Shown here one piece after another: positions 1,492 through 42,272 of a stretch of DNA of 49,963 nucleotides (within the stretch, counting starts at the first letter, position 1; each line of letters starts with the position of its first letter). A model generated the notes under the pieces. It saw only the letters and a list, made by a program, of their open reading frames with translations, searched no databases and was not told the origin of the DNA. The DNA is taken from assembly GCA_017624835.1 (NCBI GenBank), contig JAGAMG010000045.1:1-49963 (forward strand), in the 5' to 3' direction. Position numbers and translations under genes: made by a program. The DNA is from Lachnospiraceae bacterium. Lineage in GTDB: Bacteria; Bacillota; Clostridia; Lachnospirales; Lachnospiraceae.

Positions 1492-2547
1492 CTACAGGCC
1501 GGAACCTATCTTGCCATTCTTTATAGTCACTGTAAAGGTACTGCCTTTTCCCAGCGCACTCTGGACACTGATATCGCCACCCACGATGTCAATCACTCGT
1601 TTTACCAATGCCAGCCCCAAACCATTCCCCTGGGTGGCATGGGAGGTATCCCCCTGATAGAACTTCTCAAAAATATGACTGCCAATCTCCGGGCTGATGC
1701 CGCAGCCTTCATCCTTTACCAGTACCCGGACTTCATCCTGCTCCTTTTTGACCTGTACAAAAACAGTTCCCCCTGCCTCCGTAAACTTAACAGCATTAGA
1801 AAACAGATTATTCCATACCAGACTTAATAACTCAGCATCCTCCGTAATCAGAATATCCTCTTCCAAATCCGTCTCAATTTCAAGTCCTTTTTGTTCCCAT
1901 GCGTTTTCAAAGGCAAGGAGGCATTCACATATCTGTTCCGTCAGATTATACTCCTTCCTGTCAGAATAAATCTGCTGATTTTCCAAGCGGTTTAGCTTTA
2001 AAATATTGGTAATCAGTGCCGACAGCTTTCTGGTCTGTTCCGTAATGGATTTGGCATACTCCAACCTTTGCTCCTCTGAAAGCTCTCTGCTCTGCAGCAT
2101 GGTTCCCAGATTCTGCATTACGGAAAGGGGAGTCTTTAACTCATGGGAAACATTGGACACAAAATCTGTCCGCAGGGTCTCCACACCCGCCAGCTCCTGA
2201 GCCATTTCATTGATACCCTTACTGATAATATCAAATTCATTTAAGCTGTTTTCCCCTACAAAATACGGAATTCTTGCAGAAAAATCTCCATTAATTATCT
2301 TTTGCAGCCCCTCCTGAATCCTCTTAATATGTCTCTCCACCGTCCATTTTCTGCGGATTTCATCCAATACAAAAAACAGAATCGCCATGAAAATCACATT
2401 TTGAAAGGTAACCGGAGCGGCATTTCTTATTTCATCAGGATCCATATGACCAAAATTCAGAAACAACACAAAATTACAGGTAACCACAAAGGCTATCAAG
2501 GTAAACATAATCATTAATTTTATTATCTTATGTACAATCAGTTTCAT
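1492..2547 (-). CDS. Sensor histidine kinase
   Basis: A 351-residue membrane histidine kinase. It has a hydrophobic segment near residues 8-30, a short extracytoplasmic loop, a second segment near 44-60, and a HAMP-like linker around 70-120. The HisKA box SHELKTPLS is near residues 135-143, followed by HATPase motifs: N-box WNNLFSNAVKF, G1 DEGCGIS, and G2 GNGLGLALVK. It autophosphorylates on the box histidine and passes the phosphate to the regulator encoded one base upstream, whose TAG stop almost touches this ATG. The small sensor loop suggests it senses the membrane, or a partner such as the two membrane proteins downstream. The signal is unknown. Confidence 0.93.
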   Translation of the reverse strand: MKLIVHKIIKLMIMFTLIAFVVTCNFVLFLNFGHMDPDEIRNAAPVTFQNVIFMAILFFVLDEIRRKWTVERHIKRIQEGLQKIINGDFSARIPYFVGENSLNEFDIISKGINEMAQELAGVETLRTDFVSNVSHELKTPLSVMQNLGTMLQSRELSEEQRLEYAKSITEQTRKLSALITNILKLNRLENQQIYSDRKEYNLTEQICECLLAFENAWEQKGLEIETDLEEDILITEDAELLSLVWNNLFSNAVKFTEAGGTVFVQVKKEQDEVRVLVKDEGCGISPEIGSHIFEKFYQGDTSHATQGNGLGLALVKRVIDIVGGDISVQSALGKGSTFTVTIKNGKIGSGL

Positions 2548-2548
2548 A

Positions 2549-3220
2549 CTACTTTATTACCGCCTTATACCCCAATCCATGCACTGTCACAATTTCAAAA
2601 TCATCGCATTCCGAAAGCTTATCTCTCAGCTTTGTCATATATACATCCACCGTTCTGGGACCGGATTGAGTATCACTGTCCCAAAATTCATCCATCAATT
2701 GGGAACGGGTAAAGGTCTTTTTAGGATAGGATAAGAGCTTATAAAGCAGATTAAATTCCCGTACTGTCAGGTTGATTTCCTCATCCTCCAAATAAGCGGT
2801 GCACTCATCCGCAGCCAATGTGAGCTTCCCGATTACCAACTGTTTACTAGCGGCAATTTTGGCTCTCCTAAGCAGTGCACCAATGCGGAGCAACAATTCC
2901 TCCAAATCCACAGGCTTTACCATATAATCATCAATCCCCACACGGAAGCCCCTTTGCTTGGATGCAAAATCATCCCGGGCAGTCATAAACAGGATGGGAA
3001 TCTCCTGATTCAATTCTCTCACTGTTTTGGCAAATTCAAAGCCATCTATATCCGGCATCATCACATCGGATATAATTAAATCAAATACATTCTCATACAT
3101 GGCATCATAGGCTTCTTCTGCACCCAGACAACCCACTGCCTCATAGCCGTTCTGATTCAAAAATACGCAGACCGTGCGATTTAATTCCCTGTCATCCTCT
3201 ACTACCAATATTTTAAACAT
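2549..3220 (-). CDS. OmpR-family response regulator
   Basis: The receiver domain (about residues 1-115) has the acidic pair D9/D10, phospho-acceptor D52 in SDVMMP, T80 and K102. A winged-helix DNA-binding domain follows, ending with the typical VDVYMTKLRDKL and VHGLGYK motifs. I chose the ATG at 3220, before FKILVVEDD, because it has GGAGGAAGTCT upstream and fits the family start; the longer frame to 3283 lacks homology. The cognate kinase follows after one base. A hairpin with a T-tract (3234-3267) lies directly before the ribosome binding site. Repeated TGTTAA motifs lie further upstream and could be its own binding site. Confidence 0.93.
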   Translation of the reverse strand: MFKILVVEDDRELNRTVCVFLNQNGYEAVGCLGAEEAYDAMYENVFDLIISDVMMPDIDGFEFAKTVRELNQEIPILFMTARDDFASKQRGFRVGIDDYMVKPVDLEELLLRIGALLRRAKIAASKQLVIGKLTLAADECTAYLEDEEINLTVREFNLLYKLLSYPKKTFTRSQLMDEFWDSDTQSGPRTVDVYMTKLRDKLSECDDFEIVTVHGLGYKAVIK

Positions 3221-3233
3221 AGACTTCCTCCAT

Positions 3234-3267
3234 AAAAAGCCGCGGCATGACATATGCAGCGGCTTTT
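3234..3267 (-). terminator. Hairpin with T-tract before the response regulator
   Basis: AAAAGCCGC at 3235-3243 pairs with GCGGCTTTT at 3259-3267, and part of the loop can pair as well. On the minus strand the stem is followed by five T residues. It is placed to end the arabinofuranosidase transcript, but it ends only a few bases before the ribosome binding site of the response regulator. Any transcript for the regulator starting upstream would therefore run through it, so attenuation is possible. Confidence 0.65.
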
Positions 3268-3292
3268 CCAACACTTCCAGCATAACATCATT

Positions 3293-3319
3293 GTGTTAAG
3301 TGTAACACACAAATGTTAA
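3293..3319. promoter_or_regulatory. Candidate operator, TGTTAA/GTGTTA repeats
   Basis: The direct repeat TGTTAA occurs at 3294-3299 and 3314-3319, 20 bases apart. An inverted pair GTGTTA (3293-3298) and TAACAC (3303-3308) lies between. Direct repeats at helical spacing are typical of OmpR-family sites. Binding by the adjacent regulator is inferred. Confidence 0.35.
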
Positions 3320-3333
3320 AGAAATGTTTCTGA

Positions 3334-5370
3334 TTATAAAAATTTCATCTTATATACACCAAAAGAATTAGGCTGTAAAACTAACGCTTCCTTTTCCCCA
3401 AAACATTTTTCATAAGGCTTTATCCTCTCCGGTTCCGTAATGGTATTCCCCAGCTTTTGATTTTCTCCGGTAAGGATGGTTCCATGAATTTCCACAAAAG
3501 GCATTTCCTGCCCTTCTGCCAGACCGTCCTCTTCTGCCCTCATTAATTCAAGTTCCATCGTCTGATTATTAGTGTTTACTACCTTTAAAATAACAGTACC
3601 TGCATCCTCTCCCTCTGTATAGCAGCTTGCAGAAAGATAGATTCCCTGCTTTACCAATTCTTTTTCCTGCCCCTGTAAATCCAAGGTCATATCTCCCATA
3701 TTTGCTCCGTACATCTGTTGCACATAATAGCTGGGAGTGGCATACGAAATTTCTCCATCAAACCATATCATATCAGGGGACCATTGTGCATAGCCCAGTC
3801 TTGCAAAAAGGGGCGCATAGGAAGCCAGCACTACCACATCTGCATTACGTTCCACTCCGGTCAAGAAAGCTGCTTCTGCCAATGCTCCCTCCAAAGTATT
3901 GGCATCCGGTCTGTTCATGCCACTTATAGGATGGGCAGCATATTCCCCAGAAAAAACCTTGACATCTCTGGGATAATTATCATAAAAATCCGTATGCTCC
4001 AAAAGCCATTCAGGCTTTACATAATAATGTTCGTCCACTGCGTACACAAAGTTTTCCTGCTCCCCATGAGCATGATAAAATTCCCAAGCCTTTGTATACC
4101 TCTCAGAAGTAATATCCGGTCCTGCGGAGCCAATCAGCTTAATGGAAGCATCATATTCATGAATTCGCTGTTCAAACACTGTATATCTCTCAAAAAAATC
4201 CGCTCGCTGAGTTTGCCACTGTTCATTACCCACACCCAGCATTTTCAGATTAAAGGGTGCTTCATGTCCCATTTGGGCTCTTACGGCACCCCATTTGGTA
4301 TCAACACCCCCATTGGCAAATTCAAGTAAATCAATGGATTCCTGTAGAAAAGCTTCAAATTCAGGACTGTCAATTGCCACCTGTTCTGTAGACTGATACT
4401 GACAGGCAAATCCCACATTTACTACCGGCAATGGCTCTGCACCAATCAATTCACAAAGAAGAAAATACTCATAATAGCCCAAGCCCAAGGTCTGATTGTA
4501 ATGACTGTACACACTTTTAAAGCTGTTTTCTTCACAATTTCCATGAACCGCCCAACGATTCCAATTGTTTTTCCTAGCCCAGGGCTCCTTTAAGCTATCC
4601 TTAAAGCAATAGCGATTATCCAGAGTATTTCCCTCCACGATACAACCACCGGGAAAGCGCAAAAATCCCGGCTTTAAAGCTTTAAGCTTTTCAAATAAAT
4701 CCTTACGGAACAGCCCTGCCACTGCATCCTTAGGAAACATGGAAATATAATCAAACTCCACAATCCCGGCAGTGTCCATGCACAACACAAAAGCAGCACC
4801 TGACACGGATGCATCAGCAGTAATCTCCAATTCATATTTACGGAAATAATTATAGGTTTCCGAAACACCGGCAGCTGCTGCAATCTGTCCCTGAGCATAC
4901 CTCTTGCCGTCCTTTTCCACACCAATCACAAAATTTCCGGTAAAATCCACACATCTTGCCCAAAAGGTTATCCCATAACCCATTCCCTGTTTCAGAGAAA
5001 TGCCCTCATATGCCTGATTGCAAAGTCCACACATAGGAGCAGTTGCTTCCACACGCATGTAATGTGGATTGTCCGTAGTATGCGGACTCCCGGTTACCAC
5101 CTGATAATTCATCGGAAGCACAGTTCCTTCTTCTGTGCAGCCTTCCACTTCGCTTTTCTCAGAAATGTATGCCTTCCATGCATAATCTCCATCAAAAACA
5201 GTATAATAATCCCTCGCCTGACCAAAAGCCTCCACAAATTCAAAGGAGCGGTTTTCAATCATCTCCGCATATAAGCCACCGTCTGCGGCATAATTAATGT
5301 CCTCAAAAAATAACCCAATCATTCCCTTTTGAATGGGAACACCCTGTTTTTTGCTAAGCTGTAATTTCAT
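3334..5370 (-). CDS. GH51 alpha-L-arabinofuranosidase
   Basis: A 678-residue enzyme that releases terminal alpha-L-arabinofuranose from arabinan and arabinoxylan oligosaccharides. The N-terminus GLFFEDINYAADGGLYAE and the following NRSFEF are diagnostic of family GH51. The predicted acid/base is E383 in GVGNEQW and the predicted nucleophile is E476 in FSGEYAAH, with the active-site DEHYY at 446-450. No signal peptide is present, so it acts in the cytoplasm on imported oligosaccharides. Translation starts behind AGGAGGAGAACCTAA. It is transcribed alone, from a probable promoter at 5457-5485 to the hairpin at 3234-3267. It complements the GH43 enzyme and the giant pectinase in this window. Confidence 0.95.
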   Translation of the reverse strand: MKLQLSKKQGVPIQKGMIGLFFEDINYAADGGLYAEMIENRSFEFVEAFGQARDYYTVFDGDYAWKAYISEKSEVEGCTEEGTVLPMNYQVVTGSPHTTDNPHYMRVEATAPMCGLCNQAYEGISLKQGMGYGITFWARCVDFTGNFVIGVEKDGKRYAQGQIAAAAGVSETYNYFRKYELEITADASVSGAAFVLCMDTAGIVEFDYISMFPKDAVAGLFRKDLFEKLKALKPGFLRFPGGCIVEGNTLDNRYCFKDSLKEPWARKNNWNRWAVHGNCEENSFKSVYSHYNQTLGLGYYEYFLLCELIGAEPLPVVNVGFACQYQSTEQVAIDSPEFEAFLQESIDLLEFANGGVDTKWGAVRAQMGHEAPFNLKMLGVGNEQWQTQRADFFERYTVFEQRIHEYDASIKLIGSAGPDITSERYTKAWEFYHAHGEQENFVYAVDEHYYVKPEWLLEHTDFYDNYPRDVKVFSGEYAAHPISGMNRPDANTLEGALAEAAFLTGVERNADVVVLASYAPLFARLGYAQWSPDMIWFDGEISYATPSYYVQQMYGANMGDMTLDLQGQEKELVKQGIYLSASCYTEGEDAGTVILKVVNTNNQTMELELMRAEEDGLAEGQEMPFVEIHGTILTGENQKLGNTITEPERIKPYEKCFGEKEALVLQPNSFGVYKMKFL

Positions 5371-7655: not shown

Positions 7656-8456
7656 TTATACTCTCTCTTTTCTGCTTTCCTTCTTATCTCTTAATTTATT
7701 AGAAAGCTTTTGAAATAAAGCGATAATCCCTTTACAAATAGCAGGTGTAACAATTCCTGCCATGGCTACAGTCAGCATCATAAATAAAATACCGATACCG
7801 CCACATACCAGGCCGCCACCTATCAATGCAACACCAACCAAAGGCTCCGTAAATAAAACCATGGTTCCCACTGCTGCCAATATTACAAACACAATAAACA
7901 ATGCCACTGCTGCCACACCAAATCCAAATATCACTCCAAACCAGCCTATTATAAGTCCCAATAAGCCTGTCAAAATTCCCACTGCAGCGGATACTATACC
8001 GGCACCTACTGACAGTAAAATGGGAGAAGCAAACAAAACCAAAATAATAATCAGAATAATCATTCCTGTGGACATTTTTTTACCGGAGTTTTTATTTCCA
8101 GCATTGCTTTCCTGTATCTGTGCCTGTGCCACTGCCGGTTCTGTGGTTTCGCAAGCTGCTCCATTATTCGGAGATTCTTCTCCCTTTTGCCCATAAGGTA
8201 TCACTGCCTTATCTTGGGAAACGGACTGGGAATAATCATCATATCCATTTGTTGCATAACCATTTGCATTTAAATCCCGCTTAATATTCTCTGCCACTCT
8301 TGCAGGATTTCCCAATGCCTCTATTACACTCTGCTCATTTTCCGGTCCTGCATCATCAAAATAATCATTATAATATTGCAATGCTTCTTCTCGTTCTGCC
8401 TGGGAGATATTCTGAAGAAGCGCTTCCAATTGCTTCATAAATTCATTTCTGTTCAT
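7656..8456 (-). CDS. DUF1700/HAAS-domain membrane protein
   Basis: The N-terminal 65 residues (NRNEFMKQLEALLQ, EALQYYNDYFDDAG, ALGNPARVAENIK) form the HAAS helical domain that usually accompanies PadR-type regulators. A linker rich in Gln, Ala and Glu follows. The C-terminal half has four hydrophobic segments, and the protein ends in a very basic tail. Two ATGs six bases apart are possible; I use the second (8456), which matches the family start. It sits between the PadR regulator and DUF4097. HAAS domains are thought to interact with PadR proteins, so this protein may connect the envelope to transcription, which is inference. Confidence 0.88.
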   Translation of the reverse strand: MNRNEFMKQLEALLQNISQAEREEALQYYNDYFDDAGPENEQSVIEALGNPARVAENIKRDLNANGYATNGYDDYSQSVSQDKAVIPYGQKGEESPNNGAACETTEPAVAQAQIQESNAGNKNSGKKMSTGMIILIIILVLFASPILLSVGAGIVSAAVGILTGLLGLIIGWFGVIFGFGVAAVALFIVFVILAAVGTMVLFTEPLVGVALIGGGLVCGGIGILFMMLTVAMAGIVTPAICKGIIALFQKLSNKLRDKKESRKERV

Positions 8457-8498
8457 ACACATGCCCTTGCCTTTTCGGCGTTTTTTGCTTCCCTCATA

Positions 8499-8828
8499 TT
8501 ATTTTTTCAAATCGATTTTTCCTTCAAAAAGTGCTGTTATTTTTTGCGAATACTGCCGCCACTCACTTTCATATAAGCCAAGCTGCGCCCAGCCCTGACT
8601 TGTTACCTTATAATAGCGCCTGTTCCGCCCCGCACATTCCATATCATAAACCTCCAGACACTCATCCTTTTGTAATCTGCGAAGTACGGGATATAGTGTG
8701 GACTCCGATATATCAATAATCTGGCGAACCTCCTGGGTAATCTTGTATCCGTAAGTTCCTTCCGGCTCCTTGGACACAATCGCCAGCACTATGGCATCCA
8801 ACAATGCCGCTCCGGTGTTAAATACCAT
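8499..8828 (-). CDS. PadR-family transcriptional regulator
   Basis: A 109-residue winged-helix repressor of the short PadR type: GTYGYKITQEV, SESTLYPVLRRLQKDECLE, GRNRRYYKVTSQG. The last part is the helix used for dimerisation. I start at ATG 8828, with AGGAAGGGG upstream, rather than at the GTG at 8834. It is the first gene of the operon with the DUF1700 and DUF4097 proteins. Its promoter lies inside a perfect 20-bp inverted repeat (8855-8913), which is the expected arrangement for autorepression. The ligand or signal is not known. Confidence 0.95.
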   Translation of the reverse strand: MVFNTGAALLDAIVLAIVSKEPEGTYGYKITQEVRQIIDISESTLYPVLRRLQKDECLEVYDMECAGRNRRYYKVTSQGWAQLGLYESEWRQYSQKITALFEGKIDLKK

Positions 8829-8854
8829 GTACACACCCCTTCCTATATTTTTCT

Positions 8855-8913
8855 ATAATATTATATGCCGTATAATATTGCTTATGGCTATACTATACGG
8901 CATATAATATTAT
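8855..8913. promoter_or_regulatory. Perfect 20-bp inverted repeat, PadR operator candidate
   Basis: The 20 bases at 8855-8874 are the exact reverse complement of those at 8894-8913, separated by 19 bases. The core of each arm is ATATGCCGTATA. One arm covers the -10 box of the promoter described next. Binding by the adjacent PadR protein is inferred. Confidence 0.75.
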
Positions 8914-8920
8914 TTGTCAA
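8892..8920 (-). promoter_or_regulatory. Promoter of the PadR operon
   Basis: Minus strand: consensus -35 TTGACA (8915-8920), 17-base spacer, -10 TATAGT (8892-8897). The -10 and most of the spacer fall within one arm of the inverted repeat, so an occupied operator would block RNA polymerase. Confidence 0.75.
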
Positions 8921-8945
8921 ACATTTTTTATCAGCGCAAAAGGAA

Positions 8946-8985
8946 AGCCTCGCAGAGGCGATTTTGCGAATTGCTCTGAGAGGCT
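8946..8985 (-). terminator. Terminator of the M50 protease gene
   Basis: AGCCTC-x-CAGAG (minus strand) pairs with CTCTG-x-GAGGCT, followed by TTTCCTTTT. It lies just downstream of the protease stop at 8995 and upstream of the PadR promoter. Confidence 0.7.
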
Positions 8986-8994
8986 CTACTACAT

Positions 8995-10146
8995 TTATTT
9001 ACTACATTTATTAACAACAAGCTCCATCAATTCCCGCTCGGCTACAATTTCACTGGGATAGGGATATGTTCCGGCTGTTTTCTCAAATTGTGCCAGCACC
9101 CCTTCTGCCTTCTTTTCATCCTTCTCCACAAACCTTGCATACAAATACTTGGTCCGAAGAACTGTGGGAAATGTTTTCATGGACTTCATAAACTTCTGTA
9201 GCTCCTTGGTATACATTTCCTGTAACTTTTCTTCCCTGCATTCTCCCACAAGCTCACAGTAAATTCTGTCACAAATCATTAAATTCCGATGAATCCCCAC
9301 AATGGAACTATCAATGGTAAGCAAGTGCTCCATTTGTTTATCCGCTTCTTCAAAATGATGCTGATCCATCAAACGATTACAAGCAAAAACTCCTCTTACT
9401 GCCACCATACTGTTTTTCATTTGTTCATCCGAAGGCACAGTAAACCACTCCTCAGGCATATCCTTCAACCGAATTCCCTTAGCAATTTGCTGATTTGCCT
9501 TCATTTGTACCCAGAAGGAATAGAGTGCATCGGAACTTTTCCCTAAGGAAACCGCATTATATCCATCATTATCAACTTCCCCCAATCGAAGAGGCACTCC
9601 GTTTACAATGGCAAAGGCAAAGCCTACAATTGCTGTCATTATAAAAAACAAGCCAAATACAGAAGCTTCACCCAATACAAAATATAACGCCAGAAAGAGA
9701 ATTCCCGTCAGAATATTCATCAAAGAACCACCCATATTATAGAGCACCACCGGCAACTTTCCATCCCTCATGGCAGGCGGCACCATCAGACATTGACCGC
9801 CGGTTCCTGCAATGGTTAACCTTCTAAAAGAAAGCTTGTTTTCCTCCTTTATCCACATAAAGCTTCCAATGCGAAAGGACGAAAATTTGTACCCTGTCAA
9901 CAATCCAAATACCAAATGCCCCGCCTCATGAATAATAATTTGTAAAAAACCTGCTACATAGATTCCCACAAATAACGCTGCCACTACAAAAAGTCTTTCA
10001 ACTATGGATTTATTTTCCATTATCCCACTCATAAATTTTCCTATGTATATACCACACCAATAACCAAAAATCATAAAAATTGCAAAAACGATACCCATTT
10101 GCCAAGGAAACTGTTTCTTTTTCTTCTTATTTTTCTGTCCGCTCAT
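8995..10146 (-). CDS. M50-type (site-2 protease) membrane metallopeptidase
   Basis: The zinc motif HEAGH is at residues 73-77, inside a hydrophobic helix, and the second metal-ligand motif is NDG with D194. Together these define an intramembrane M50 protease of 383 residues. The first half has about five to six membrane segments. The last 170 residues are soluble and alpha-helical with TPR-like character. The N-terminus is extremely Lys-rich. Start chosen behind GGAGAAATGAGAG. It is flanked by its own terminator and is probably monocistronic. M50 proteases usually release membrane-bound anti-sigma factors or clear signal peptides; the target here is unknown. Confidence 0.88.
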   Translation of the reverse strand: MSGQKNKKKKKQFPWQMGIVFAIFMIFGYWCGIYIGKFMSGIMENKSIVERLFVVAALFVGIYVAGFLQIIIHEAGHLVFGLLTGYKFSSFRIGSFMWIKEENKLSFRRLTIAGTGGQCLMVPPAMRDGKLPVVLYNMGGSLMNILTGILFLALYFVLGEASVFGLFFIMTAIVGFAFAIVNGVPLRLGEVDNDGYNAVSLGKSSDALYSFWVQMKANQQIAKGIRLKDMPEEWFTVPSDEQMKNSMVAVRGVFACNRLMDQHHFEEADKQMEHLLTIDSSIVGIHRNLMICDRIYCELVGECREEKLQEMYTKELQKFMKSMKTFPTVLRTKYLYARFVEKDEKKAEGVLAQFEKTAGTYPYPSEIVAERELMELVVNKCSK

Positions 10147-37911: not shown

Positions 37912-38993
37912 GATTTTTTCTCCATAATTTTTCTTAAACTTTCCGTATAAGGTGCTCTGGCAATGCCGTATTCCGTCACGATTCCTGCAATCAATTCATT
38001 GTCCGTCACGTCAAAGGCAGGATTATACACCTTCACGCCCTCCGGTGCCATCCGTTCCTTATACCACATTTCCGTTACTTCCTCTGCCGGACGTTCTTCA
38101 ATATGAATCTCTTTTCCTGTAGGGGTTGCCATATCAATAGTGGAAGTGGGGGCACAGACATATACCGGCACACCATAATATTTTGCCACCATGGCAACCA
38201 CGGAGGTTCCGATTTTATTGGCGGTATCTCCGTTTGCAGCCACCCTGTCGCAGCCTACAAACACAGCCTGCACCAAACCCTTGGACATAACATTGGCTGA
38301 CATATTGTCACAAATTACAGTCACATCCACACCGGAGGAATGTAATTCATAAGCTGTCAGTCGCGCTCCCTGCAAAAGAGGTCTTGTCTCATCCGCAAAG
38401 ACCTTAAAATGGTAGCCCTTCTCCTGTCCCAGATAAATAGGAGCTGTGGCAGTACCATATTTTACCGTAGCCAGCTGTCCCGCATTACAATGAGTTAAAA
38501 TGCCATCTCCGGGCTTTACCAAAGTTAAACCATACTCCCCAATTTTACGGCAAACCTCAATATCCTCTTCTCGGATACGAAGCGCTTCTTTATGCAAGAT
38601 TTCCTTCACTTCCGCCACAGATTTTCCTTCTTCCCTTCCAGCTCGAAGTGCAGTATTTTCCATTCGTTTCAATGCCCAAGAGAGATTGACGGCAGTGGGT
38701 CTTGAAGAATCCAGATATTCTTTCATTTTTACAAATTCTGCATGAAAAGTTGCAAAATCCTCGGTTTCAATCCGATTGGATAACATATAGATTCCCAATG
38801 CTGCTGTCACTCCAATAGCAGGAGCACCGCGCACTTTTAACAAGTAAATTGCATCCCAGATTTCCTGAGCCGTCTTTAAAGCAATCAGCTCCGTTTTTCC
38901 CGGCAGCTTGGTCTGGTCTATAATAATGACTGCATCCTGCTCCTCATCGAATGCTACCGTATCAAAATCCATGATATTTTTCTGCTTTTCCAT
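37908..38993 (-). CDS. mtnA: S-methyl-5-thioribose-1-phosphate isomerase
   Basis: A 361-residue MtnA of the aIF2B/MtnA family. It converts methylthioribose 1-phosphate to the ribulose form in the methionine salvage or 5-deoxyribose disposal pathway. Motifs: VRGAPAIG (54-61), THCNAGQLAT with catalytic C169, and GCDRVAANGD with D249. The ATG at 38993, behind AAGGA, is preferred over 39011. None of the other salvage genes is nearby. Instead it is co-translated with a GH43-like enzyme (4-base overlap) and follows a YbaK gene by 33 bases. The substrate in vivo may therefore differ from the name. Confidence 0.93.
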   Translation of the reverse strand: MEKQKNIMDFDTVAFDEEQDAVIIIDQTKLPGKTELIALKTAQEIWDAIYLLKVRGAPAIGVTAALGIYMLSNRIETEDFATFHAEFVKMKEYLDSSRPTAVNLSWALKRMENTALRAGREEGKSVAEVKEILHKEALRIREEDIEVCRKIGEYGLTLVKPGDGILTHCNAGQLATVKYGTATAPIYLGQEKGYHFKVFADETRPLLQGARLTAYELHSSGVDVTVICDNMSANVMSKGLVQAVFVGCDRVAANGDTANKIGTSVVAMVAKYYGVPVYVCAPTSTIDMATPTGKEIHIEERPAEEVTEMWYKERMAPEGVKVYNPAFDVTDNELIAGIVTEYGIARAPYTESLRKIMEKKS

Positions 38994-39026
38994 AAGTATA
39001 TATCCTTTCATAAGTTATGACTTTCA

Positions 39027-39512
39027 TTATTGCTTTATAATATCTGCAAACTCTCCCTTACTAGCCTTTACCAAATCCTGAGGCATTAGCTCAATTTGGG
39101 AACCAATGCGTCCGCCGCTGACAATCATAGTTGGCAAAGCTTCTGCGCTACTGTCAATTCGAGTAATATATTGCTTTTTCATACCAATAGCAGTACAACC
39201 ACCTCTGATATACCCCGTCACGGCATTGATATCCTTTACCGGAATCATTTCAACACTTTTTTCTCCCACCGCTTTGGCCGCCTTTTTCATATCAAGTTCC
39301 TCTGCCACCGGGATTACAAACACAAAATAGTTTTTACTGTTTCCCTTAGTGACCAAGGTCTTATAAACCTTCTCATAAGGCAGGGAAAGGGTATCCGCTA
39401 TCTGCAAGCCATCCACAAATTCATCACACTCATAGGTATAATGCGTGAAGGGAATCTTTAGGGATTCTAAAATGCGCATGGCGTTGGTTTTTACTTCTTT
39501 TTGCTTTGCCAT
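39027..39512 (-). CDS. ybaK: YbaK/EbsC family Cys-tRNA(Pro)/prolyl-tRNA deacylase
   Basis: A 161-residue YbaK-type protein. It removes wrongly attached amino acids from tRNA(Pro), chiefly Cys. Visible family parts: KTLVTKG, the central FVFVIPVAEELDMKKAAKAVG, YIRGGCTAIGMKK, and MIVSGGRIGSQIEL. The start is backed by TTGGAGCAACGATT. It is the first gene of the operon with MtnA and GH43. The promoter (39595-39623) shares its -35 region with that of the divergent GNAT operon. Confident in family, less in exact substrate. Confidence 0.93.
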   Translation of the reverse strand: MAKQKEVKTNAMRILESLKIPFTHYTYECDEFVDGLQIADTLSLPYEKVYKTLVTKGNSKNYFVFVIPVAEELDMKKAAKAVGEKSVEMIPVKDINAVTGYIRGGCTAIGMKKQYITRIDSSAEALPTMIVSGGRIGSQIELMPQDLVKASKGEFADIIKQ

Positions 39513-39594
39513 AATCGTTGCTCCAATCTATTAAATTCTACTTATTTCTCAATACTCATACGCTCATTGTATCACGCCCCAGTTGCATACGCCA

Positions 39595-39623
39595 TTACAT
39601 TTTTTGAAAAAAATGATTGACAA
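39595..39623 (-). promoter_or_regulatory. Promoter candidate of ybaK
   Basis: Minus strand: -35 TTGTCA (39618-39623), 17-base spacer, -10 TGTAAT (39595-39600). Its -35 overlaps the -35 of the divergent promoter, so the two promoters may compete. Confidence 0.45.
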
Positions 39624-39644
39624 TTCTTTTTTCAGGAGTATAAT
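39617..39644 (+). promoter_or_regulatory. Strong promoter of the GNAT leader
   Basis: Consensus -35 TTGACA (39617-39622), 16-base spacer, consensus -10 TATAAT (39639-39644). Transcription should start near 39651, at a 16-bp perfect palindrome (39656-39671: TTCTTTTG, CAAAAGAA), giving a leader of about 300 bases before the first GNAT start codon. Confidence 0.85.
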
Positions 39645-39708
39645 TACAAACAATATTCTTTTGCAAAAGAAATAATAAATCAAATTATCACGAAAGGAGA
39701 AGTCAAAT

Positions 39709-39855
39709 ATGAAACAGTTACATGCAATGAAACATAATTCATTCCAGAATCAGCCCGCGTTCAATTCCAATTCCAATCTGGCGCTTGGGTTCTTTTGGGT
39801 ATCCAAAAATCAATTGTTTCCTATACAGATTCTCCCTTCACAAATTACCTCATAG
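39709..39855 (+). CDS. 48-codon leader ORF (probable attenuation peptide)
   Basis: ATG at 39709 is preceded by AAAGGAG at a good distance. The frame runs 48 codons to TAG 39853-39855. The product begins MKQLHAMKHNSF and ends FPIQILPSQITS; it is rich in Asn, Gln and Ser and I recognise no family. It is too short for a usual enzyme and has no membrane helix. It lies between a consensus promoter and a transcription terminator that precedes two acetyltransferase genes. Codons near its end (39818-39828) can pair with the terminator loop. I infer a leader peptide whose translation controls termination. Confidence 0.65.
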   Translation: MKQLHAMKHNSFQNQPAFNSNSNLALGFFWVSKNQLFPIQILPSQITS

Positions 39856-39903
39856 CTTAGGTAATAATTTAGCTATATGATGAAGCCGGTGCCTGTATAG
39901 GAA
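39818..39903 (+). promoter_or_regulatory. Candidate antiterminator pairing in the GNAT leader
   Basis: TTCCTATACAG (39818-39828), inside the leader ORF, is the exact 11-base complement of CTGTATAGGAA (39893-39903), in the loop and edge of the terminator. A smaller hairpin, ATAGCT (39852-39857) with AGCTAT (39871-39876), lies between the arms. A ribosome sitting over the ORF end would block the pairing; a ribosome stalled earlier would free it. Confidence 0.55.
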
Positions 39904-39931
39904 TATATGGGTATCGGCTTTTTATTTTATT
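39883..39931 (+). terminator. Intrinsic terminator in front of the GNAT genes
   Basis: 39883-39894 pairs with 39909-39920 over 12 bp, three of them G-U wobbles, followed by TTTATTTTATT. It precedes the GNAT start codon (39955) by about 24 bases and ends no gene other than the leader ORF. Confidence 0.8.
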
Positions 39932-39954
39932 ACACTTATCAAGGAGAAAAACCT

Positions 39955-40989
39955 ATGAAAACACCTATTTTAGAAACCGAAAGATTAATTTTACGCCCCC
40001 TGGCTGTCACAGACGCTGAGGAAATCTTCGCAAACTGGACCAGTGACCCTGAGGTTACAAAATTTATGACTTATACCACTCATGCAAATGTAGAAGTTAC
40101 AAAGGCATGGCTTGCAGATGAAGAAGTTCAAAACTCCACTGACACCCTTTATGATTGGGCATTTATCCGCAAATGCGACAATAAAATAATTGGTAGCGGC
40201 GGTCTTTCATATAAAGAAGAAAAAGGCTGCTTTGAGTTGGGCTACAATATTATGAAGGACTGCTGGCATCAGGGCTATACCACCGAAGCTGCTACAGGTA
40301 TCTTAAAATTTGCTACCGAGACTCTGGGTGAAACCAAATTCTTTGCCCGTCACGAAAAAAGAAATCCCAACTCCGGAAAGGTAATGGAAAAAGTAGGCTT
40401 TCACTACATAGGAGATAGTGAATCCGACAGTCTGGATGGCTCCAAACATTTTGAAAACAGGGAGTATATTTTAGAGATACCCGCACTGTATTTGAAAGAA
40501 GCCAATCTGGAGGATGCAGAACAGGAATATCTTTTCTTTGCTCAATTACCCGCTGACGAGAACGGTTTTACCAACCCCGACTGTGGCGCAAGCAAGGAAG
40601 AATATATGAAAAACGTACTTCCCAAAATGATAAACTATTCCAAGGGCATTGACCTCCCGGAAAACTTTGTCCCTGAAACCTTCTTCTTCCTTTGGAAGGA
40701 TGGGGAAATTATCGGCGAGTTTCGCATCCGCCACGAATTGACAGAAGCTTTGCGAACAGGCTCCGGTCATATCGGATATGGCATCAAAAAGGAATATCGC
40801 GGCAAGGGTTATGCTTCTAAGGGCTTGGCACTTACTATTGAAAAAGCTAAGGAAATCATCAAAGAGGATGAAATCTATATGTCCGTGAATAAAGACAATC
40901 CGGCTTCCCTACAGGTACAGATAAAGAATGGAGCACACATACATCACGAGGATGACAAGAAATATTATACGCGATTGAAAATAAGGTAA
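39955..40989 (+). CDS. Tandem GNAT acetyltransferase (two fused domains)
   Basis: A 344-residue protein with two GNAT domains. The first (about 1-175) is RimJ-like: ETERLILRPL, IIGSGGL, ELGYNIMKDCWHQGYTTEA, and NPNSGKVMEKVGF. The second (about 180-344) has GEFRIRH, GHIGYGIKKEYRGKGYASKG and NKDNPASLQVQ. Both hold the acetyl-CoA-binding Q/R-x-x-G-x-A pattern. ATG 39955 has AAGGAG eight bases upstream, while the longer frame starting at 39907 begins inside the terminator. The substrate is unknown. Targets such as an antibiotic, a ribosomal protein or a small molecule are all possible. The leader with attenuator favours a drug-resistance role (inference). Confidence 0.9.
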   Translation: MKTPILETERLILRPLAVTDAEEIFANWTSDPEVTKFMTYTTHANVEVTKAWLADEEVQNSTDTLYDWAFIRKCDNKIIGSGGLSYKEEKGCFELGYNIMKDCWHQGYTTEAATGILKFATETLGETKFFARHEKRNPNSGKVMEKVGFHYIGDSESDSLDGSKHFENREYILEIPALYLKEANLEDAEQEYLFFAQLPADENGFTNPDCGASKEEYMKNVLPKMINYSKGIDLPENFVPETFFFLWKDGEIIGEFRIRHELTEALRTGSGHIGYGIKKEYRGKGYASKGLALTIEKAKEIIKEDEIYMSVNKDNPASLQVQIKNGAHIHHEDDKKYYTRLKIR

Positions 40990-41038
40990 TTACAAATCAG
41001 GCAATTACACAAATGAAAAGAAAGGAGCCTGCAATTTT

Positions 41039-41569
41039 ATGAAATTTGTTTTTCCCGATTTACAATATAAGGAAAAGGCCATTGAATTTATAAATGAGTT
41101 TTACCAATACCATTCTGAAATCAACGGCAGCGGTGCTTTGGACAGCTATTTGGAAAAAGCCACTTATGAGAATTGGCTCACAAAAGTACATCAAGATATT
41201 GATATTGCCAATGTAAAGCCTCCCAGAGTCCCTGCTCTCACTTATTTTTATGTCCGCAAAGAGGACGACCACATTATAGGTATGGTTAATATCCGATTAG
41301 CTTTAAATGATTTCCTAAGACAAGAGGGCGGACATATCGGGTATTGTATCCGACCAACTGAACGACAAAAGCATTATGCTACCAATATGCTGCAAGATGT
41401 ACTTAAATTTTGCAAGCCAATCGGTCTAAAGGAAGTAATCATATCCTGCGATAAATCCAATATGGCATCTGCAAAGGTTATACAGAATTGTGACGGAGTC
41501 TTGGATGCAGAATTTTACAGCGATACCTTTAAAGAAGTAATTCAGAGGTATATCATCAAGCAGCCATAA
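41039..41569 (+). CDS. GNAT family acetyltransferase
   Basis: A 176-residue GNAT protein. Recognisable parts are YFYVRKEDDHIIGMVNIR, GGHIGYCIRPTERQKHYATNML and CDKSNMASAKVIQN. It resembles the second domain of the preceding protein (same GHIGY and NMASAKVI-type motifs), so the two probably arose by duplication. It is 49 bases downstream of the tandem GNAT gene with an AAAGGAG upstream, and no hairpin lies in between, so both should be under the same leader. Acceptor unknown. Confidence 0.9.
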   Translation: MKFVFPDLQYKEKAIEFINEFYQYHSEINGSGALDSYLEKATYENWLTKVHQDIDIANVKPPRVPALTYFYVRKEDDHIIGMVNIRLALNDFLRQEGGHIGYCIRPTERQKHYATNMLQDVLKFCKPIGLKEVIISCDKSNMASAKVIQNCDGVLDAEFYSDTFKEVIQRYIIKQP

Positions 41570-41645: not shown

Positions 41646-42062
41646 CTAAAGATTCATTTTCTGCATCAATGCTTCCTGCAATACTCGCGATACATTGATA
41701 TGTGCCTTTTCCGCTTCTCGATTTAACCAATTGGGCAAGGTAACATTTCTACGAACAGATCTATTATCTACCTTTCTTCTATATTCTGCAAAATCAATAT
41801 CCACCAACGAAATAAATTGTTTTCCATCTTGGGCAAATTCTGTTTCTGATAAATTAATCACACGCCTATCCCTTGGCTGCGGAACTTCCTTTCCCATATC
41901 TTCAAAGGTAATACCTGCAAGCCCGATGGCATCTCTTGCCATTTCTATAGCATCAGCCATTCCAAAACCTTCTGTATAAATTTCAAAATCCGGTACTTCT
42001 ACCAATACAGTATCTTTATCATCATCTGTTTGTGTAAATATGACAGGATATACTCTTTTCAT
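41646..42062 (-). CDS. hicB: HicB-type antitoxin
   Basis: The 138-residue protein has an N-terminal HicB fold (YPVIFTQTDDDKDTVLVEVPDF, ADAIEMARDAIGLAGI). Its C-terminal ribbon-helix-helix (RRNVTLPNWLNREAEKAHINVSRVLQEALM) should bind the 27-bp palindrome upstream of hicA. ATG 42062, with GGAGG eight bases upstream, is favoured over the earlier ATG at 42077. It neutralises the HicA toxin and represses the pair. Normal gene order hicA-hicB. Confidence 0.93.
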   Translation of the reverse strand: MKRVYPVIFTQTDDDKDTVLVEVPDFEIYTEGFGMADAIEMARDAIGLAGITFEDMGKEVPQPRDRRVINLSETEFAQDGKQFISLVDIDFAEYRRKVDNRSVRRNVTLPNWLNREAEKAHINVSRVLQEALMQKMNL

Positions 42063-42101
42063 TCTTTCAACCTCCATTACGTTGTTAAAACAATTTTCTT
42101 T

Positions 42102-42272
42102 CTATATTCCCCATTTTTTAAGAATCGCTTTAGCAAGTCTTTCATTTATTTCTTTATGCCTTGGTATCTGCTCTATTTCTCCCGCTCTTATGTATATATC
42201 ATGACTTCCGCCATGTCGATAAAATACAAACCCTGCTTCTTCTAGTTTTTTTACCAAATCACGTTGCTTCAT
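42102..42272 (-). CDS. hicA: HicA-type mRNA interferase toxin
   Basis: A 56-residue HicA. Conserved features: KQRDLVKKLEEAGFVFYRHGGSHDIYIR with the catalytic His in the GGSHDIY motif, and IPRHKEINERLAKAILKKWGI. HicA is a small double-stranded-RNA-binding-fold ribonuclease that cleaves mRNA. The length is normal for the family. The start has AAAGGA eight bases upstream. It is encoded 39 bases upstream of hicB and is transcribed from the promoter inside the palindrome. Confidence 0.93.
   Translation of the reverse strand: MKQRDLVKKLEEAGFVFYRHGGSHDIYIRAGEIEQIPRHKEINERLAKAILKKWGI

Follow-up and report, generated by a model that had tools for sequence, protein, structure and literature searches.

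Attenuation-regulated chloramphenicol-resistance genes are a known precedent for the type of control considered here. In the bmrB-bmrCD region of Bacillus subtilis, a 53-aa leader governs readthrough in the presence of lincomycin, erythromycin or chloramphenicol through its own translation, according to the available part of the report (PMC4191407). For vmlR of the same species, the accessible portion of the published description gives a uORF within an anti-antiterminator stem, a pause hairpin and an intrinsic terminator, with a stalled ribosome permitting the antiterminator to form (PMC9226507).

We analysed a stretch of 49,963 nucleotides of Lachnospiraceae DNA (hereafter the window), in which a region upstream of acetyltransferase genes follows a similar plan. 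We consider it likely that this region is a ribosome-mediated transcription attenuator that silences an acetyltransferase operon unless translation is disturbed; by analogy with the systems above, the inducer would probably be a translation inhibitor. The locus comprises the following elements:

39617-39644, + strand: promoter TTGACA-16-TATAAT, matching the consensus at 12/12 bases
39694-39699, + strand: Shine-Dalgarno sequence AAGGAG of the leader ORF
39694-39722, + strand: region 1, the Shine-Dalgarno sequence and first codons, predicted by RNAfold to be the partner of region 2 (anti-antiterminator)
39709-39855, + strand: leader ORF of 48 codons, MKQLHAMKHNSFQNQPAFNSNSNLALGFFWVSKNQLFPIQILPSQITS, recognised as an ORF with a Shine-Dalgarno sequence; 7 other genomes of the genus have related leaders
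39818-39828, + strand: region 2, the antiterminator arm TTCCTATACAG at codons 37-40, exact complement of 39893-39903
39844-39865, + strand: hairpin ATTACCTCATAGCTTAGGTAAT, whose loop contains the leader stop codon, a possible pause hairpin
39882-39921, + strand: intrinsic terminator of 18 pairs with a 4-base loop and a T-rich tail, with equivalents at 12 other loci
39893-39903, + strand: region 3, CTGTATAGGAA, common to terminator and antiterminator
39955-40989, + strand: fused tandem GNAT acetyltransferase of 344 aa (GNAT1, about residues 1-174; GNAT2, about residues 175-344; Pfam PF13302, PF00583)
41039-41569, + strand: GNAT3, a third GNAT gene (PF13302, PF00583)

The window resembles bmrB-bmrCD in the similar size of its leader, its intrinsic terminator, its alternative antiterminator and its predicted anti-antiterminator, whereas the bmrB terminator lies inside the leader ORF and the controlled genes encode an ABC multidrug transporter, as the available text has it (PMC4191407); in the window, the terminator follows the ORF and precedes the GNAT genes. 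The order of predicted elements, including the anti-antiterminator, is that of vmlR, but the vmlR product is an ABC-F factor, and that system is additionally subject to translation attenuation and has a NusG TTNTTT pause motif (PMC9226507). Between leader stop and terminator core, TTNTTT was absent in 12 of the 13 loci that share the plan (the window and 12 relatives described below) and present in the locus L233. Similarly, the accessible account of yxjB (tlrB) of B. subtilis describes an antibiotic-stalled leader ribosome that blocks termination before a resistance gene (PMC6851288), but that leader has 9 aa and an RYR macrolide arrest motif; the motif R/K-X-R/K occurs in 0/13 leaders here, and a macrolide arrest leader was therefore rejected. 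The E. coli topAI-yjhQ uORF toiL senses several classes of ribosome-targeting drugs with one uORF, but acts by translation repression and Rho, as opposed to the predicted intrinsic terminator of the window, judging from the accessible portion of the study (PMC12121999). Among the open PMC matches listed, none concerned, by its title or the start of its abstract, a leader attenuator before GNAT genes in these bacteria. As far as the available portions of those reports describe them, the plan matches bmrB-bmrCD and vmlR, and the best explanation is that a known mechanism is at work and would operate as in these systems, so that the novelty would lie in the leader families and in the class of controlled gene.

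All the sequence elements named in a preliminary description of this DNA, namely a consensus promoter, a 48-codon ORF with a good ribosome site, an intrinsic terminator, an 11-base complement between leader and terminator, and a small hairpin in between, were recovered in silico at the positions listed above. The promoter is the sole 12/12 match among 9 promoter-like sites in a scan of 38500-41500, where shuffled sequence yields 8.7 such sites with at least 9 matches. In a simple scan of the same region, the terminator is the sole terminator-like site while shuffles are expected to give 2.9; the scan alone is thus no evidence, and the case rests on pairing and conservation. The terminator hairpin is long (-25.6 kcal/mol) and conserved in relatives. 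When the leader was dinucleotide-shuffled 2000 times, a perfect 11-base complement to the terminator 5' arm plus loop appeared once; the duplex energy was equalled by 19 of 500 shuffles, which is weaker support than that by length. Leader and terminator together (39655-39930) fold 4.55 sd below shuffles. Rfam 15 gave 0 matches at gathering score across the whole window, and an Rfam riboswitch or T-box was rejected on this ground.

The downstream genes differ from the preliminary description, which had spoken of two acetyltransferase genes. Since Pfam finds two GNAT domains in the single ORF at 39955-40989 and one in the next gene, the arrangement is one fused gene followed by a third GNAT. GNAT3 begins 49 bases past the fused ORF and probably shares its operon; in the simple scans, no terminator-like site turned up between the two or further on to 42500. 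Neither gene reaches any NCBIfam cut-off. GNAT1 and GNAT2 are separate genes in two other loci, L091 and L092. On the other side of the leader, a divergent gene (39027-39512, - strand) encodes a Cys-tRNA(Pro) deacylase YbaK/EbsC above the NCBIfam cut-off; it is kept beside the leader in the related genome G122, and a YbaK homologue is also found in the L091 locus. Two small genes converging on the GNAT operon (41646-42272, - strand) are HicB/HicA toxin-antitoxin-like by sequence appearance.

The preliminary description had proposed that related genomes be compared for a conserved leader ORF and covarying pairs. A leader profile, built from the same eight leaders that it separates, matched exactly 8 of 138 congeneric genomes (E ≤7.5e-16; next best 0.0017); a leader ORF is conserved in these relatives. 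All eight matches carry promoter, ORF and terminator: TTGACA and TATAAT (the promoters having been located by a TTGAC search) and the core CTGTATAGNNNTATA are present in 8/8, as is CTGTATAG, which had itself been used in part of the search for them; the leaders span 47-53 codons, and the distance from stop to core is 35-39 bases in seven loci and 76 in G079. Three relatives (G122, G104, G021) were discovered upstream of GNAT homologues, G079 by leader DNA, and G099, G134 and G135 by the terminator-core pattern; one relative is contig CALWSL010000008.1 (labelled Acetatifactor). The window and G122 represent the same locus, with YbaK (85% identical) and EtfA (95% identical) both in place. At profile level, no leader was detected in the other 130 of the 138 genomes, many of them incomplete, and matches at E ≤7.5e-16 in this enzyme-blind scan of 138 genomes included no convincing leader before other gene types.

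The leader peptides of the genus are 17-27% identical to that of the window and form two groups, one beginning MKQ (window, G122, G079) and another, group B, with the pattern M-R-Q-[FS]-x-G-Y-x-N-S...F-A-Y-S (five genomes). Over codons 1-32 of group B, synonymous exceeds nonsynonymous change (pS 0.37, pN 0.19); in the arm, synonymous change is low (pS 0.19 vs pN 0.29); after the arm, the values are pS 0.17 and pN 0.15. In this group, dN/dS is >1 in 3/10 pairs. The substitution pattern agrees with translation of the leader under weak constraint on its peptide, and falls short of strong proof of coding.

Five more loci share the plan: L093, L233 and, with a second type of peptide, L102, L230 and L234. 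In L093 (labelled Lachnoclostridium), a promoter and a 45-codon leader are accompanied by an arm, AGACACC, that matches GGTGTCT in its own terminator. Set beside the GATACC/GGTATC pair of group B, both sides of the pair have changed. A 7-base match, the longest perfect one in L093, arises in 183/2000 shuffles. L102 (labelled Butyrivibrio), L230 and L234 have a shared leader type, a terminator GCCTCATCAA...TTTGATGGGGC and an arm of the TTTGATGAGG type, whose pairing in L230 includes G-U pairs. Another Asn-rich leader is that of L233, where the arm spans the stop. Comparison of these sequences suggests that the leader switch is a conserved element.

A strict terminator pattern matched 8 of 397 family genomes, the window being the only true case and the other 7 lacking such a leader. 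A looser pattern gave 42 places in 35 of the 138 genus genomes; of the 30 places inspected, 6 had a leader (G079, G099, G104, G122, G134, G135), and two of the other 12 are the window and G021. Matches to the single leader peptide were judged to be noise as a set, and the leader DNA search gave mainly short matches, of which a minority were read; G079 and G122 were true relatives among them. Against 290 family genomes, the leader profile gave 5 matches at E ≤0.01, its own and four (L208, L209, L210, L211) at 0.003-0.01, of which L209 was read and rejected. A first scan of 30 methyltransferase loci, drawn from 101 matching genomes, flagged no complete element set (L185, L198, L200 and L203 were read). 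An automatic scan of 50 GNAT loci flagged L004, L094, L230, L233 and L234; its negatives are weak because it missed two known loci, the window and L102, through its terminator filter.

By tblastn, 13/13 leaders precede GNAT genes, members of one methyltransferase family, or both:

Window: GNAT1-GNAT2 fusion, then GNAT3
G122, G104, G021, L233: GNAT1
G099, G134, G135, L093: methyltransferase, then GNAT1
G079: methyltransferase, then glycosyltransferase
L102, L230, L234: GNAT2, then methyltransferase

The L093 arrangement includes a 460-aa ORF; open frames at the match measure 445 in L230 and 455 in L234 and suggest a GNAT2-methyltransferase fusion in both. The G079 glycosyltransferase (L142 4692-5873) scores 294 against the TIGR01426 macrolide-family model (cut-off 260), but is far under the macrolide-inactivating Mgt model NF033129 (142 vs cut-off 700). 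Eight loci (G122, G104, G021, L093, L102, L230, L233, L234) were found by way of these enzymes, which makes the association a built-in one for them; G079, G099, G134 and G135, by contrast, came to light through leader or terminator DNA. The tandem-GNAT setting, as initially described, holds for the window but is not particular to the plan, which also precedes single GNATs, methyltransferases and GNAT-methyltransferase pairs.

Leaderless relatives of these enzyme loci are common, and the methyltransferase family occurs in 101/397 sampled family genomes at E ≤1e-45. The enzymes do not need the leader, since none was found at profile level in 130/138 genus genomes, many of them incomplete, and no complete element set was flagged before 30 methyltransferase homologues. 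In two such leaderless relatives, L091 and L092, genes resembling translation-protection factors lie nearby. L091 (labelled Spirochaetaceae) has a GTPase resembling Tet-type protection proteins (1848-3731; 399.7 bits vs cut-off 775) just before GNAT1 and GNAT2. In L092 (labelled Roseburia), two ABC-F-like genes (829-2370 and 8293-9054), both under the NCBIfam cut-off and the second cut by the locus end, flank a row of GNAT, GNAT1 and GNAT2.

We compared the duplex between leader and terminator arm with 500 shuffles at each locus. Beside the 19 of the window, the numbers of shuffles as good were 27 (G122), 2 (G104), 1 (G099), 12 (G134) and 7 (G135), and for the more distant loci 30 (L093), 23 (L102), 2 (L230), 10 (L233, where the stretch was lengthened 25 bases beyond the stop) and 10 (L234). 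The low G104 count comes from codons 20-34, not from the arm at 35-38, and the best-energy duplex of L093 is another stretch than its AGACACC arm. Pairing is at shuffle level in G079 (255/500) and weak in G021 (121/500, best duplex outside the arm). By exact length, shuffles as good out of 2000 numbered 407 for G079, 631 for G021, 183 for L093 and 20 for L102 (9 bases). Fisher's method gives 2e-6 for 8 loci, but counts related loci as if they were independent, and we do not rely on this value; when a single locus stands for group B, the result is 0.004. When pairing of regions 1 and 2 (1:2) and of regions 2 and 3 (2:3) was scored jointly, shuffles as good out of 100 were 12 for the window, best-matched at another stretch, 64 for G122, 66 for G079, 55 for G021 and 0-7 for G104, G099, G134, G135, L093 and L102. 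L102 has a textbook 1:2, 2:3, 3:4 set, made up of codons 6-8, codons 29-32 and the terminator arm, which no shuffle equalled (0/100).

To model a moving ribosome, we masked it at every third codon and folded the RNA downstream of it as far as the terminator 5' arm. This covered 10 of the 13 loci, namely the eight of the genus, L093 and L102; a ribosome past the arm is outside this model. In the window, stalls at codons 2-32 gave 9.0 expected 2:3 pairs and stalls from codon 35 none, and naked RNA gave 1.5. In 9/10 modelled loci, stalls upstream of a cut-off at codon 23-35 (from 23 in L102 to 35 in G079) permit 2:3 pairing and later ones do not; L093 shows a gap in 2:3 pairing at codons 14-17, and G104 forms it only near codon 29. 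Several leaders have an aromatic or Gly-Phe stretch (GFFWV, FGYFV, FAYS) shortly before the switch codon, which may be the stall site. An anti-antiterminator is predicted in 6/10 loci, where naked RNA is OFF-like. It is not general, because the other four (G122, G099, G134, G021) favour the antiterminator without a ribosome and are ON-like, G134 even with the full terminator. A hairpin lies at or beside the leader stop in 12/13 loci, as found by a best-of search without shuffle control.

From these elements we infer how translation, stalling, induction and the enzymes would be linked. Transcription would start at the consensus, presumably constitutive, promoter, and a ribosome would translate the 48-codon leader. 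During normal movement, the arm at codons 37-40 would at first be covered and, in this locus, could afterwards pair back to the start region, after which the terminator would form and transcription would stop before the GNAT genes. A stall anywhere up to about codon 32, for example of a drug-bound ribosome, would keep the arm free to pair with the emerging terminator 5' arm, and the genes would be transcribed. The hairpin at the stop codon may keep RNA polymerase and ribosome in step, or may be a pause hairpin as in vmlR, and the enzymes would modify the compound causing the stall or its target. The ON branch, in which a stalled ribosome frees the arm for the antiterminator and readthrough follows, had been foreseen in the preliminary description and is supported by the plan kept in relatives and by the masked-folding model. 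For the OFF branch, translation had been expected to cover the arm and thereby let the terminator form. The arm would indeed be covered first, but covering alone does not explain the OFF state, since a finishing ribosome stops downstream of the arm: judging by footprint size, a ribosome on the stop codon should fall just short of covering 39818-39828. The OFF state therefore needs timing or 1:2 pairing; in RNAfold predictions, the window arm can also pair with the leader's own Shine-Dalgarno and start region.

That the ORF and terminator are no regulatory pair but a small protein gene with a terminator at its end is scarcely plausible. Such a gene would be in keeping with the partial conservation of the peptides, which in group B extends beyond the arm (pS 0.17, pN 0.15), and with the shuffle-level pairing in G079 and weak pairing in G021; against it stand the complementarity of arm and terminator seen in the window and in most relatives, the fact that unrelated leader peptides carry their own matching arms, and the position of the leaders directly before GNAT/methyltransferase genes. 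If the locus is a true attenuator, it might instead answer a general slowdown of translation, with the GNATs acetylating proteins of the ribosome, or further targets in the cell, as part of a stress response. The arm is freed by stalls over a wide range of codons in the masked-folding model, and toiL responds to at least five drug classes, as stated in the accessible part of the study (PMC12121999). GNAT1 falls in PF13302, and a PDB search with its profile placed 3fbu, 2fck (a putative ribosomal-protein-serine acetyltransferase, second of 31 matches) and PA3944 nearest, then bleomycin acetyltransferase, with aminoglycoside acetyltransferases and MccE lower, a ranking that does not decide between drug and protein substrates. 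The downstream group-transfer enzymes vary, including the macrolide-family glycosyltransferase of G079, and their distribution is patchy, which fits accessory defence better than ribosome housekeeping. We regard the stress-response reading as rather unlikely.

The leader could also sense aminoacyl-tRNA: translation would slow at Asn codons when starvation or an aminoacyl-tRNA synthetase inhibitor depletes charged tRNA(Asn), and the GNAT would inactivate such an inhibitor in the manner of MccE, which acts on processed microcin C. Asn makes up 6/48 residues of the window leader (p 0.014), all six upstream of the arm, and 6/38 in L102, 6/38 in L230, 6/35 in L233 and 8/36 in L234 (p 1e-4), compared with 4.2% in six window proteins. 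This enrichment, at p <0.02 in 5/13 leaders, leaves room for an aminoacyl-tRNA signal, but the other 8/13 are unenriched (1 to 4 Asn). MccE is among the PDB matches to the GNAT1 profile, yet 16th of 31 (E 1.8e-4) and below RimL-type, bleomycin and aminoglycoside acetyltransferases, and no amino-acid biosynthesis gene, as expected behind an attenuator of the trp/his type, was recognised directly downstream, where GNAT, methyltransferase and glycosyltransferase genes are found instead. We regard such a sensor as very unlikely.

A stall-responsive leader peptide of the kind we favour, one answering a disturbance of translation, would be a ready-made sensor, and the leaders could be tried in reporters with no need to culture the host. 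More tentatively, as a possibility short of probable, these loci may represent an unrecognised inducible defence in gut Lachnospiraceae, in which at least two fast-evolving leader families (that of the window and the Asn-rich one of L102, L230 and L234) respond to a gut compound that blocks translation and is no classical macrolide, and turn on an inactivating GNAT and methyltransferase cassette, sometimes with a glycosyltransferase; attenuators would then have emerged, or been exchanged, time and again ahead of this enzyme pair. If the leaders do respond to a compound, they would be a lead to an antibiotic or gut metabolite not yet known, and would suggest a function for the widespread GNAT/methyltransferase pair.
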